A stretch of DNA of 64,000 bases from a bacterium. GTDB lineage: Bacteria; Eisenbacteria; RBG-16-71-46; CAIMUX01. The notes beneath the pieces were generated by a model. The model did no database searches, was not told the origin of the DNA, and was given only the letters and a program-made list of their open reading frames with translations. Made by a program: the position numbers and the translations under genes. Where the stretch lies: positions 192,554 to 256,553 of the forward strand of contig JAUIHP010000007.1 of NCBI GenBank assembly GCA_030431975.1, read 5' to 3'. Position 1 is the stretch's first letter; every line of letters begins with the position of its first letter. This document shows positions 28,424 to 33,060 of the stretch, piece by piece.

Positions 28424-29299
28424 ATGCAACGATTTCCCTACATCACCGACTACGTGAACGACGTGTTTGCCGAGGAGTCCAAACGTTGGGACTACCGGTT
28501 TCTTCGGCCTCCCATTCTCGTCGTTTACTTCCTGATGCGGGTCGTGCTCATGCCGCTGAAGTTCGTTATCCACCGCGTCCCCTACGGATTCGAGCACTGG
28601 GCCATCGACTACGTGTTGTCGTTCGGGATGAAGCACTTCGCAACGGTGGATGCCGCCCGCATGGTCATTCGCCATGTACAGATCGAACCTCTCCTCTACC
28701 GCTTTCTCCTGACCGGACATCCGGAACCGGAAGGAGTGGACCGGGACAAGAAATTCTGCGGTATCGACGCCGACTTCGGTGTCTCTCGGGTCAAGGACAT
28801 CTACTGGAACAATCTCACGATCAGCCACGACGAACTCTCCTACGAGATCATCGAGCGTTTCGATCGGGAAACGTTTCTTGCCAACCTCGACGAGCTTCGT
28901 CGCACGACGCCTGAGGACCATGAGAGATTCAGCAAGGGGGCGTTGGAAGAAGTCGACAAGCACTCCCTGAAGATTCTAGGAACGACCAATGTCGTCATGC
29001 TCATCGTTCTGACGATTACGATCTTCGCGGACCTACGCACGGCGATGAAAGCGCTCAACTCCTTCGACTCGGACTCCATTCTGCTTTGGTGCATGAAACA
29101 CATCTACCGCGATGACCCGGAGGTTCTGATCGACCTCGACTTCTTCATGCAGGAAACGGCCAACCGGGGGCACTACAGCAGCAGCGCTTTCCTTTCGAAT
29201 CCCAGCCAGTACCTCTACTACCACGTCGTCTTCGACGAGTTTGCCTACGAGACGTTGCGGTCCCGGCGCCCAACCATACCGTCCGAAGCGACGGCTTAG
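28424..29299 (+). CDS. Membrane-associated protein of unknown function, first gene of the ketoacyl synthase unit
   Basis: 291 residues. One clear hydrophobic segment near the N-terminus (PPILVVYFLMRVVLMPLKFVI) and a second around residue 190 (TNVVMLIVLTITIFADL), with long polar helices rich in conserved-looking aromatic and charged residues between them. No catalytic motif recognised; not assigned to a family. It ends 12 bp before the ATG of the KAS III-like gene, which in turn overlaps the monooxygenase gene, so it is most likely part of the same pathway, perhaps as a membrane docking or tailoring protein. The start at 28424 (MQRFPYITDYV) is preferred over 28382. Confidence 0.65.
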   Translation: MQRFPYITDYVNDVFAEESKRWDYRFLRPPILVVYFLMRVVLMPLKFVIHRVPYGFEHWAIDYVLSFGMKHFATVDAARMVIRHVQIEPLLYRFLLTGHPEPEGVDRDKKFCGIDADFGVSRVKDIYWNNLTISHDELSYEIIERFDRETFLANLDELRRTTPEDHERFSKGALEEVDKHSLKILGTTNVVMLIVLTITIFADLRTAMKALNSFDSDSILLWCMKHIYRDDPEVLIDLDFFMQETANRGHYSSSAFLSNPSQYLYYHVVFDEFAYETLRSRRPTIPSEATA

Positions 29300-29311
29300 A
29301 GTCTCGTGCCT

Positions 29312-30412
29312 ATGACCGTCTACATCACTCGCACCGGTTCGTTTCTGCCCGGTCCCGCCGTCGATAACGAGGACATCCATCGCTACCTGGGAGTCGTCCC
29401 GGGAGAAGAATCGGTTCGGGAGCGGGTCCTTCGGATGAACGGGATCCAACAGCGTCACTACGCCCTCACCGAGGACCAGTCGCCGACGCACGACATCTAC
29501 GAGTTGGCGGCGCAGGCGGTGGAAGAATGCGGCATTCGCGCGGACGGATGCAGCAAGGTCGGATACCTGTCGGCCGGTTCCACGCACACGCCGCTCTCGG
29601 GACCGGGACTCAGCAGCCTGCTTCACGGGACGCTGGCCGAGCGTGGAGTTCTTACCCATTCCGTCGAGGTCAACTCCAACGCCGGAATCTGTACTTCGGC
29701 GGCGGCCGCGCTGCACAACGCCTACCGCGCTCTGGATCGCGGAGAACACGAGGCTGCCATCTGCGTGGGTGCGGAGCGTCCGTCGGAGGTCCTGAAGTCG
29801 ACCGGGTTTCAGGGTGGGGACGCTCCCGAGTCGGAAGAGGAGCGGCAGGACAGACGTTCTCCCTGGTTCATGTCGGTATTCCTTCGCTTCATGCTTTCAG
29901 ATGGCGCCGGTGCGTTTCTTCTCGAGAACCAACCGTCGGACTCCGGGATTTCATTCGGGATCAACTGGATGTTCGCCCGGTCCTTCGCCCACGAGGCGCC
30001 CCTTTGCATGACGATGGACAATCGAAACATGCTGCTCAGTCAGGATGTCGACATCCTTTCGAAGCACATGATTCCCTGTACGCGCACTTTCGTCGAGATG
30101 GCGATGGAACATCATCGAGAGACGCTCTGTAGCTACGACTTCATCCTTCCGCACATGTCCTCTTTCTTCTTTCAGCGCCAGATGGAACGGCTCATGAACA
30201 CGCTGCGGGTCGATAAGCAGAAGAAGATTCCGTACTGGACGAACCTGGCCACCGCAGGAAACACCGGAGCGGCCAGCATCTTTATCATGCTCGATGAGTT
30301 CGTACGAACGCAGAGGATCGAAGACGGCGACCGGGTCCTTCTCTTCGTTCCCGAATCCGGCCGGTTCAACTACGTTCTTTGCAGCCTGACCGCGGTAGCC
30401 GGCTCTCCGTGA
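29312..30412 (+). CDS. Beta-ketoacyl-ACP synthase III-like thiolase-fold enzyme
   Basis: 366 residues, longer than typical FabH (~320). The catalytic triad is in place: Cys127 (NAGICTSAAAAL), His281 (LPHMSSFF) and Asn317 (ATAGNTGAASIFIMLDEF). The start MTVYITRTGSFLPGPAVDNEDI is characteristic of the KAS III superfamily. Family members condense an acyl-CoA with a malonyl carrier or another nucleophile. A duplicate of fabH is unlikely given the neighbours: an unknown membrane protein upstream and an FAD monooxygenase whose GTG overlaps this stop. A role in a dedicated lipid or polyketide-like product is inferred. A GTG at 29306 is an alternative start. Confidence 0.88.
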   Translation: MTVYITRTGSFLPGPAVDNEDIHRYLGVVPGEESVRERVLRMNGIQQRHYALTEDQSPTHDIYELAAQAVEECGIRADGCSKVGYLSAGSTHTPLSGPGLSSLLHGTLAERGVLTHSVEVNSNAGICTSAAAALHNAYRALDRGEHEAAICVGAERPSEVLKSTGFQGGDAPESEEERQDRRSPWFMSVFLRFMLSDGAGAFLLENQPSDSGISFGINWMFARSFAHEAPLCMTMDNRNMLLSQDVDILSKHMIPCTRTFVEMAMEHHRETLCSYDFILPHMSSFFFQRQMERLMNTLRVDKQKKIPYWTNLATAGNTGAASIFIMLDEFVRTQRIEDGDRVLLFVPESGRFNYVLCSLTAVAGSP

Positions 30413-32112
30413 CAAGACGATTGGCCATCATCGGGGGCGGAAGCAGCGGACTCGTGACGTTGAAGTATGCGCTCGACGAGTTGGATGGCTGGGAGATCGT
30501 CTGCTTCGAGAAGTCTGACTCCGTGACGGGTTGTTGGGGGAGTCCACCTGATGGCTTCGTTTCCACTTCGACGCGCTACGCCACTCAGTTTGCCTGCTTC
30601 CCCGTTTTCGATGCCCATGTGCAGCCGAGGCAGCCCGATTCGGAGTCGGCGCGCGAACGCTGTCCTGAGTTCTTCTGTGATCAGGAGTACGGCGGCTATC
30701 TGAACTCGTTTGCGGATCACTTCTCTTTGCGACCCCACATCCGCACCCGCACGAAAGTCGAGTCCCTTCGGCAGGCAGACGGCCGGTGGCGCCTGACCAT
30801 CGACGGACCTGACGGGACGCAAAGGGAGGACTTCGATGCGGTCGCGATCTGCACGGGACTGGTCGACCAGGTGCGCGAGACCGATTGTCCCGTCGAGACA
30901 CTGAAGGACTGGCGGGGTGTCGACGAGATTCGCGGAAGGAGAGTGGTGGTCGTCGGCGGTGGGGAGTCCGGAGTCGACCTGGCCCACCGTCTGGCCCGAC
31001 CGGAACTCCAGAACGACGTGTTTCTTTCGCTGAGATCGGGAATACGCGTCAGTCCCCGGTACCATCCGATTCGCGGCGTCCCGTCGGACTTTCTCCGAAA
31101 CCGCTTGCTGCTGAGCTTCGATCCCGGCCTTCGCAGTTCCATCGGAGGAGCGTTCGTCGCCGCTCGCATTCGCTTTCAGGAAGTCTTCGAGAGGCTCTTT
31201 CCACACCGCATTGCGCGGAAGCCGTCCGAGAGCATGAGCGCCGTCGAGCGTCGGAAGCACTGGGACCTTCGCCTCACGCGTGCGGCCAAGGGCAAACTCT
31301 TCGACGTCTACCACAACAAAACGGATGACTTCCTGGGGGCCGTCGGGGAAGGAAGGATTCGCATCATCGGCCCCAACGTCGACGAGGCCTGGAGCGACTT
31401 CTTCGAGTTTCAAAGTTCGGAACGCCACTCAGTCGATCCGGACCTCGTCGTTCCCGCCATCGGCTACCGCAACGGGTTGGAGCCGCTGACAGGCGGACAG
31501 ATTCGGCTCCGCGACTTCTTTCTGGGATGTGTCCACACGACGTTTCCCACGTTGTTTGCCATCGGGTTTGCGCGGCCCGTCATCGGGAACATCCCCTCGA
31601 TCAGTGAGATGCAGGCCCGTTTCGCGGTCGGTGTGCTCAGCGGCCGGGTGAAGCGAACCCTTCAGTGGCCTTCGGAGCACGTGAAGCTGCGCCGGACGCT
31701 GGAAGAGCGATTCCGGAGTTTGGATACCGACGCCGCCTACCCGGTCGAAATGTTTCCCTACTGCGATGAACTGGCCCGGAGACTCGGTACGTATCCCAGC
31801 CTCCGGAGGCTCGGGTCGTGGCGGCAGTGGGCCCACGTGCAGCTGGAGCCGGCCTCTACTCGACACTACGTTGTCCCAGGCTTCGGCCACACGGATCACA
31901 CCTCGGTGCGGGCAGGCCTGAATCAGACGGAACGCGTCTCCGTTCCGGCAGGCGTGGACCAAGCGGCACGCACTTCCGTTCCCATCTATTCCCCGCCCAT
32001 CCTCACTCTCATTCTGCTCGCTCTCAAACCTCTCGATTTTCTCGTGCGTGGGTGGCGGCGAGCCACCTTCCAATCCCGATCAGGGAGATCAGGACCCAAA
32101 ACGCCTCGATGA
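30409..32112 (+). CDS. FAD-dependent monooxygenase (flavin-containing monooxygenase type)
   Basis: 567 residues from a GTG that overlaps the synthase stop (GTGA). The FAD-binding GGGSSG is at residues 9-14 and the NADPH-binding GGGESG at 183-188; between them is CFEKSDSVTGCWG, the flavin-side signature. Such enzymes insert oxygen next to carbonyls or oxidise N or S atoms with NADPH and O2. The C-terminal ~90 residues look added: three 12-residue repeats (nt 31876-31983) and then a hydrophobic stretch (PPILTLILLALKPLDFLV) whose DNA overlaps the convergent CBU_0592-family gene. That tail could anchor the enzyme to the membrane, or be an extension after loss of an earlier stop. Confidence 0.88.
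   Translation: MTRRLAIIGGGSSGLVTLKYALDELDGWEIVCFEKSDSVTGCWGSPPDGFVSTSTRYATQFACFPVFDAHVQPRQPDSESARERCPEFFCDQEYGGYLNSFADHFSLRPHIRTRTKVESLRQADGRWRLTIDGPDGTQREDFDAVAICTGLVDQVRETDCPVETLKDWRGVDEIRGRRVVVVGGGESGVDLAHRLARPELQNDVFLSLRSGIRVSPRYHPIRGVPSDFLRNRLLLSFDPGLRSSIGGAFVAARIRFQEVFERLFPHRIARKPSESMSAVERRKHWDLRLTRAAKGKLFDVYHNKTDDFLGAVGEGRIRIIGPNVDEAWSDFFEFQSSERHSVDPDLVVPAIGYRNGLEPLTGGQIRLRDFFLGCVHTTFPTLFAIGFARPVIGNIPSISEMQARFAVGVLSGRVKRTLQWPSEHVKLRRTLEERFRSLDTDAAYPVEMFPYCDELARRLGTYPSLRRLGSWRQWAHVQLEPASTRHYVVPGFGHTDHTSVRAGLNQTERVSVPAGVDQAARTSVPIYSPPILTLILLALKPLDFLVRGWRRATFQSRSGRSGPKTPR
31876..31983 (+). repeat. In-frame 36-bp tandem repeat, three copies
   Basis: Copies start at 31876, 31912 and 31948 and encode 12-residue units such as AGLNQTERVSVP and AGVDQAARTSVP; the first copy is more diverged. 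Located in the C-terminal extension of the monooxygenase. Confidence 0.85.
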
Positions 32113-32293
32113 TAAAAGCCGAGAGATTGAAGTCGAAGATCAGCGAGACCAGGATGAGAAGAGCGCCGGCCGCGTTGAGGACGGAGTAACGCAGGTCCTC
32201 GGCCCGCAGTCGCTGAGTTTGCAGCAGCAGGTACGAGCCGACGATGGCGGCGACCCCCACGGTACCTACGATGTCGTACCAGGCAACATTCAT
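32024..32293 (-). CDS. CBU_0592-family small membrane protein
   Basis: 89 residues with three hydrophobic segments: DIVGTVGVAAIVGSYLLL, VLNAAGALLILVSLIF and AFIIEAFWVLISLIGIG. The pattern Y-D-x-x-G-x-x-G, then GSYLLLQ, then N-x-x-G-A, then N-x-x-x-x-I-E-x-x-W matches the small CBU_0592 family of inner-membrane proteins, function unknown. The last ~89 bases overlap the end of the monooxygenase gene tail to tail, so in the shared stretch both strands code for protein. Composition and motif fit make this a real gene despite the overlap. Confidence 0.8.
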   Translation of the reverse strand: MNVAWYDIVGTVGVAAIVGSYLLLQTQRLRAEDLRYSVLNAAGALLILVSLIFDFNLSAFIIEAFWVLISLIGIGRWLAATHARENREV

Positions 32294-33060
32294 TGATCCG
32301 AGGATACTACGGGGCGTGGATTGTCGCGGGGGGATGAGAAGGCCCCGACAAACGTCAGGGCCTTCTGAACTCCCGAGTGAATCGCCTCGACCGCGAATCG
32401 CCTACGGCTCTCCGCGTCCCCTCGGGATCTCTTTGCCGGGCGCGGCCGCCCGGTGAATGAATGAACGAAGAGAAACCAAGCGCTTTGCAGCGGCCCCGCG
32501 GCCTGTGGGCGTTTCTCTGTCGCTCCCTATGTTTCGGCATCGACAGACCGGGTTCCAGCTGACCGGCCCGTCGTACCCGTTCCAACGGTTGCTTCCTCGG
32601 GCTCGTCCGTCGTCGTTCCCTGGTCAAGCTTGGCCACCGGAACTTCAGCAGATTCTTTGCCCCAGGAAGTCCGCGGAGAACGGATCCTCCACTGAACCTC
32701 CTTTCTTCCATTTCGCGGCGCCGGAGCGGCGGTCACCAGGTTGTGATCCCTTCATCAAACCTGATGAGGCCCCTTCCGTTGCCCCTCGGACACCCACGAT
32801 GGAGGTGTCGATTCCAGACCTGGGCCGTACTAGCGCCACGGCCCAAAACCCGATCGACGGTCTGGTTTCGACGCGGGAAACGTTAGACTTACTACTGCCT
32901 GACATCAATCAAACTAAACCCTAATTTCATCCCGTTTCTCGAAGTCCTGAAACGCCGCCCGAGATCCGGCATCCGAACTGGTTTGCCTGCCCAGACGTGT
33001 CCGGTGTTCCGCCCAACGGAGGCCATGTACCGGTTATCCTCTGACCCGAGGAGGTTCGAG
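32294..33060. other. Gap of about 770 bp without a convincing gene
   Basis: Short open frames exist on both strands but lack ribosome sites and family-like sequence. It holds one hairpin (stem GAAGGCCC at 32338-32345, GGGCCTTC at 32358-32365) without a T-run. Nothing else recognised. Confidence 0.45.

Follow-up and report, generated by a model that had tools for sequence, protein, structure and literature searches.

What might be made by three tightly spaced genes that encode, in order, a membrane-associated protein, a ketosynthase (KS) and a flavoprotein? The genes lie in a stretch of 64,000 nucleotides (the window) from an Eisenbacteria genome (GenBank assembly GCA_030431975.1, contig JAUIHP010000007.1), and an earlier note on this DNA had proposed that they carry out a C–C bond-forming step followed by oxygenation of a membrane-associated lipid or polyketide-like compound. 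Our tentative answer is that the genes were acquired and represent, in rewired form, an O2-dependent lipid pathway that is widespread but uncharacterised and has at its core a KS of the DarB/StlD type and a protein of the DUF6999 family. The unit itself is real, as the earlier note had it: the genes stand in tandem on one strand (Table 1), with 12 bp between the first and the second and a 4-bp overlap (GTGA) between the second and the third.

Table 1. The three genes of the unit, with positions in the window
Feature	Position	Strand	Start codon	Evidence
Gene 1: DUF6999-family membrane-associated protein, divergent, 291 amino acids	28424-29299	+	ATG	PF22523, alignments, AlphaFold
Gene 2: StlD/DarB-type KAS III-fold ketosynthase (KS), 366 amino acids	29312-30412	+	ATG (mechanical open reading frame start: GTG two codons 5')	NF005293, PDB, trees, conservation
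Gene 3: FMO-like FAD/NAD(P)H-binding oxidoreductase, 567 amino acids	30409-32112	+	GTG	PF00743, PDB, motif scan, hydropathy

The ketosynthase

On sequence grounds, the product of the second gene is not FabH but a ketosynthase of the StlD/DarB type, with the fold of ketoacyl-acyl carrier protein synthase III (KAS III). Its best NCBIfam match is to the StlD/DarB model NF005293 (289.4 bits), whereas FabH models give 54-67 bits (67 bits being also the best NCBIfam score apart from DarB), and its best match in the PDB, over nearly the full length, is StlD (5gk0; E=2e-50). The Cys-His-Asn triad that had been read from the sequence is present (C127-H281-N317, numbered from the ATG), as in StlD and DarB, and all three residues are kept across 99 relatives. 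At 366 amino acids, the protein is indeed larger than FabH of Escherichia coli (317 amino acids), and its size lies in the range of about 366-380 amino acids of this KAS III type. In two trees, from which OleA sequences had been left out, the StlD/DarB-type KSs, including that of the window, stood apart from FabH with support of 100/99 and 100/100, so the phylogeny that the earlier note had called for sets the synthase on the StlD/DarB side as against FabH.

That this could be a FabH-like housekeeping enzyme that serves initiation within a fatty-acid operon, as its KAS III fold and its match to ACP_syn_III_C might suggest, is scarcely credible: with the FabH model TIGR00747 it scores 54.3 bits against a cut-off of 292.1, and its own genome has four other ACP_syn_III_C loci, one of which (L001) shows the order plsX-fabH-fabD. 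The trees and this second fabH together rule that reading out, and the outcome that the earlier note had named as fatal to its proposal (a synthase clustering with housekeeping FabH in a genome with no other fabH) is not what was found.

Within the StlD/DarB type, one tree placed the window KS with the DUF6999-linked set, and not with two bare KSs (L087 and L098), at a weak 94/76; the other, with fewer fused KSs, grouped it with DarB-type sequences (85/80). As the window KS sits on a long branch, its exact position is unsure. These placements bear on an alternative that we think unlikely, albeit deserving of attention, in which the unit would specify a DarAB-like pathway to a dialkylresorcinol or cyclohexanedione, with the flavoprotein performing a DarA-type aromatisation or a ring hydroxylation, and with the DUF6999 protein as an accessory. 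DarB is a cyclase (DAR-cyclase) and DarA an aromatase (PMC3949708), and a passage of the same paper credits the formation of 1,3-cyclohexanedione to Fuchs et al. (2013). The window KS is nearest to StlD/DarB, the ketosynthases of 1,3-cyclohexanedione and dialkylresorcinol formation, and in a plasmid locus of Streptomyces sp. NBC_00008 (L009) a DarB-like KS, a DarA-like protein and an aromatic-ring FAD hydroxylase are encoded together (alongside SCP2, FabF, P450, ACP and FabG), so a KS together with a flavin monooxygenase does occur elsewhere. The L009 protein, which has no Pfam or NCBIfam match, we take to be DarA-like from its position next to a KS in three loci that are phylogenetically distinct. 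Used as a phmmer query, it revealed homologues adjoining the KS of L087 and that of L098 (1e-36 to 1e-41) but none in the window or in any DUF6999 locus, the rest of the window's own genome not having been searched. Moreover, the FAD gene of L009 was rejected as a homologue of the window flavoprotein, since its product belongs to a different fold family (FAD_binding_3) and no similarity was found; a hypothetical gene of the same locus was likewise rejected as a DUF6999 homologue. On plasmids of Bacteroides, Phocaeicola and Prevotella (L010, L018 and L019), a lone DarB-like KS gene immediately follows one for a TetR/HTH regulator, and neither DarA nor DUF6999 was found in its vicinity.

DUF6999 and its conserved cassette

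The first gene had been said to match no recognised family. This was mistaken: residues 8-232 match PF22523 (DUF6999) with 40.1 bits, above the gathering cut-off of 27. Its description as a membrane protein is plausible: Kyte-Doolittle hydropathy gives roughly two hydrophobic stretches (31-49 and 184-208), and the AlphaFold model is all-helical (predicted TM-score, pTM, 0.74). Neither this model nor that of a canonical DUF6999 member (pTM 0.87) found a fold match in the PDB with Foldseek (best E 1.1 and 0.97, respectively). Alignments across the DUF6999 types show conserved RH, HD, N..D and H..E motifs, retained in the window protein as R83-H84, H135-D136, N212...D217 and H267...E272; E188 and H191, found in non-fused cassettes, are absent from it. 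That the conserved His, Asp and Glu residues might have a catalytic or metal-binding role is speculation, and the idea of a metal site must stay so because Foldseek gave no match for either model.

The company that DUF6999 keeps is more telling. A profile built from the window KS and that of Pseudoalteromonas sp. THAF3 (L008) returned 80 loci from genome contigs, with the best scores in Poseidoniales archaea (a single KS protein had given no matches in the same scan). With L008 included, 74 of the 81 loci have the order HYP-KS-HDO-DUF6999, where HDO is a haem-oxygenase-like diiron oxidase and HYP a His-rich, multi-span membrane protein. The other seven comprise a KS::HDO fusion followed by DUF6999 (L061), two such fusions with no DUF6999 (L054 and L055), two cassettes broken off at contig ends (L063 and L080) and the bare KSs of L087 and L098. 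The presence of L008 in the query biases this set. A less biased search began with DUF6999 alone, which is present in 22 of 195 Myxococcota and 9 of 398 Pseudomonadota genomes; among 23 regions fetched, a KS adjoins DUF6999 in 20, with HDO in 19 of those, many as KS::HDO fusions. The remaining three are a contig-end break with HDO present (L124), a degraded DUF6999 (L137) and a DUF6999 gene standing alone, with HDO elsewhere in the genome (L138). Thus the neighbourhood analysis suggested for the first gene finds its family nearly always next to a DarB-like KS, in a cassette that in the window is rearranged and lacks HDO.

The cassette (for example L008, 7442-10616; Poseidoniales L020; and, in fused form, Myxococcota L125 and Pseudomonadota L148) ranges over Poseidoniales (Marine Group II) archaea, gammaproteobacteria, Myxococcota and Bdellovibrionota, and its presence in Marine Group II suggests inter-domain transfer. 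Among the carriers of the common form that can be cultured are Halomonas, Shewanella and Rheinheimera. Its HDO matches the haem-oxygenase-like fold of PDB entry 3dde (E=4.6e-12), and the conserved residues E60, H91, E147, H178, D182 and H185 follow the pattern of the diiron oxidase family. HDOs use activated O2 in varied oxidations, UndA coupling a desaturation to loss of CO2 (PMC13185094). The motifs of HYP (H81-E82...H86-D88 and E102-H104-H106) are compatible with a membrane di-iron enzyme, short of proof. Many cassettes are adjoined by FA_desaturase and FA_hydroxylase genes, and this context of HDO, HYP, desaturase and hydroxylase indicates lipid substrates. We found no published name for the cassette, no paper naming DUF6999, and nothing relevant on KS with HDO or on Poseidoniales KS clusters in literature that excluded most subscription journals, so within that coverage the cassette appears undescribed, its component enzymes each coming from a known family.

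Several features of individual loci may be recorded here. The natural KS::HDO fusions (L148-L153, L125-L132, L135, L054, L055 and L061) are about 640-665 amino acids long, often with FA_hydroxylase and FA_desaturase genes in the cluster; the HYP-KS-HDO-DUF6999 loci L020-L047 are mostly from Poseidoniales, and in some genomes a desaturase gene directly follows the cassette. A GH3-family (PF03321) acyl-conjugating enzyme is encoded directly 3' of the KS::HDO fusion of a Bdellovibrionales genome (L054, 11889-13349), a possible clue to a carboxylic acid product. In L043 (2849-3676), DUF6999 is split into two open reading frames by a frameshift or an assembly error in an otherwise intact cassette. 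Searches of plasmids by tblastn gave no match with the window DUF6999, and only the query record with that of L008.

A variant without HDO

Like the cassette, the window unit has a DarB-like KS with the same triad adjoining DUF6999, and an oxidative partner in the operon. It differs in its order (DUF6999-KS-FMO, the last standing for flavin-containing monooxygenase) and in the strong divergence of its KS and DUF6999. Neither HDO nor HYP gave any profile match in its own genome (97% complete), the HDO profile having scored E<1e-80 in genomes with HDO and detected weaker HDO-like proteins too; and in the window there is no His-rich membrane protein, fatty-acid desaturase or hydroxylase. The trio would then be a rearranged, HDO-less variant of the conserved cassette, with an FMO-like flavoprotein in the position of the oxidant.

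This flavoprotein matches the flavin-containing monooxygenase profile PF00743 over its full length (92.4 bits; cut-off 22), and in the PDB it matches an ancestral FMO (E=3e-22). As in that family, there are two dinucleotide-binding motifs, just as had been claimed (GGGSSG at 9 and GGGESG at 183), and an ATGY-like PAIGY at 349; unlike members of the family, it has an extra hydrophobic C-terminal segment (528-546). The gene's last 87 bp or so, near this C-terminus, are overlapped by a convergent open reading frame for an 89-amino-acid membrane-type protein (MNVAWYDIVGTVGVAAIVGSYLLL...; approx 32026-32295, minus strand). A 634-amino-acid gene of L008 was considered as an FMO and rejected.

The FMO-like fold, together with the large KS and the family's setting among membrane and lipid genes, might call to mind an OleA-like route, in which the KS would make a long-chain beta-keto acid or ketone head-to-head, for oxidation by the flavoprotein (Baeyer-Villiger or other) to an ester or wax-like lipid. 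This seems quite improbable, as no NCBIfam or PDB match sets the KS closer to an OleA-type enzyme than to StlD, and the flavoprotein has no fingerprint of Baeyer-Villiger monooxygenases or of FMOs.

A different departure from the cassette is seen in a myxococcote genome (G255, locus L136), the DUF6999 of which has the best pairwise score to that of the window (phmmer 1.4e-7). It too has a DUF6999-KS pair and no HDO genome-wide, but its candidate oxidant is a P450, encoded beside the KS in divergent orientation, and not a flavoprotein. Because the G255 KS is sister in the tree to an HDO-fused KS (L135), there are likely to be two separate HDO-less lineages, with HDO loss apparently independent in each.

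None of the three genes was found in 46 relatives in the phylum sample (the trio thus occurring in 1 of 47 phylum genomes), so the unit was probably acquired; since GC content and GC at third codon positions match those of neighbouring genes, the acquisition seems not to have been recent, and a recent transfer finds no support in base composition.

Several points weigh against our preferred reading. The KS score with NF005293 is below the curated cut-off of 450, which separates it from StlD and DarB, as does its want of a DarA partner (other DUF6999-linked KSs, at 362-442 bits, fall below this cut-off likewise). Besides its long branch, the KS has a deletion of some 20 residues in a loop near residue 238, also unlike StlD/DarB, and D94P and W308Y replacements at sites that are otherwise invariant; the DUF6999 protein has lost D186, otherwise universal in alignments of the family. 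The FMO fingerprint FxGxxxHxxx(F/Y) was absent from the flavoprotein in a motif scan, the region being shortened, and its oxygenase activity is therefore not assured. A second DUF6999-KS-FMO operon was not found, so that substitution of the oxidant would have as its examples a single case with an FMO and a single one with a P450, the latter divergently oriented; and DUF6999 cassettes are so far without any assigned product.

Some of these features could mark a decaying or chimeric unit, in which a cassette remnant, with its divergent DUF6999 and KS, has come to lie beside an unrelated flavoprotein gene. The single occurrence in 47 genomes would fit, as would the existence of degraded DUF6999 copies elsewhere, such as the fragment in a myxococcote genome of about 9.4 Mb that has no adjoining KS (L137, 9375-10235). 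We nevertheless regard decay as rather improbable, given three intact reading frames, an intact triad, tight coupling of the genes and a composition like that of their neighbours.

A possible lipid pathway

If the trio is indeed a rewired cassette, the pathway that we infer, in its substrates, product, cyclisation and order of steps, and in its use of the flavoprotein as a functional substitute for HDO, might run as follows. A fatty acyl group would be loaded on Cys127 of the KS and condensed with another thioester, either acyl or beta-ketoacyl, a Claisen condensation being expected from the family to which the KS belongs; the ring might then close by a Michael-type reaction to give a cyclohexanedione, as with DarB/StlD. 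The membrane-associated DUF6999 protein would hold or process the long-chain product at the membrane. There the product would be oxidised, by hydroxylation or aromatisation, by the flavoprotein with NAD(P)H and FAD, in place of the diiron HDO of the common cassette. On the simplest account, the flavoprotein would here perform the one oxidation of the condensed product for which most organisms use HDO. The original proposal of C–C bond formation followed by lipid oxygenation thus gains partial support, the KS type and the DUF6999 context agreeing with it, and the absent fingerprint weakening the case for oxygenation.

More broadly, a DarB-like KS and DUF6999 may, with a likelihood that we put somewhat short of even, be the core of a lipid-building pathway, as yet undescribed, that marine archaea share with several bacterial phyla. 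Its O2-activating enzyme (diiron HDO, P450 or flavoprotein) would be exchangeable, and DUF6999 would be a membrane protein of a new kind, perhaps an enzyme, whose fold the PDB does not yet contain. Natural fusion of a KS to a diiron oxidase, encoded beside lipid desaturases and hydroxylases, predicts a widespread, unrecognised lipid, and the apparent exchange for a flavoprotein in the window would help to identify the step that HDO performs.

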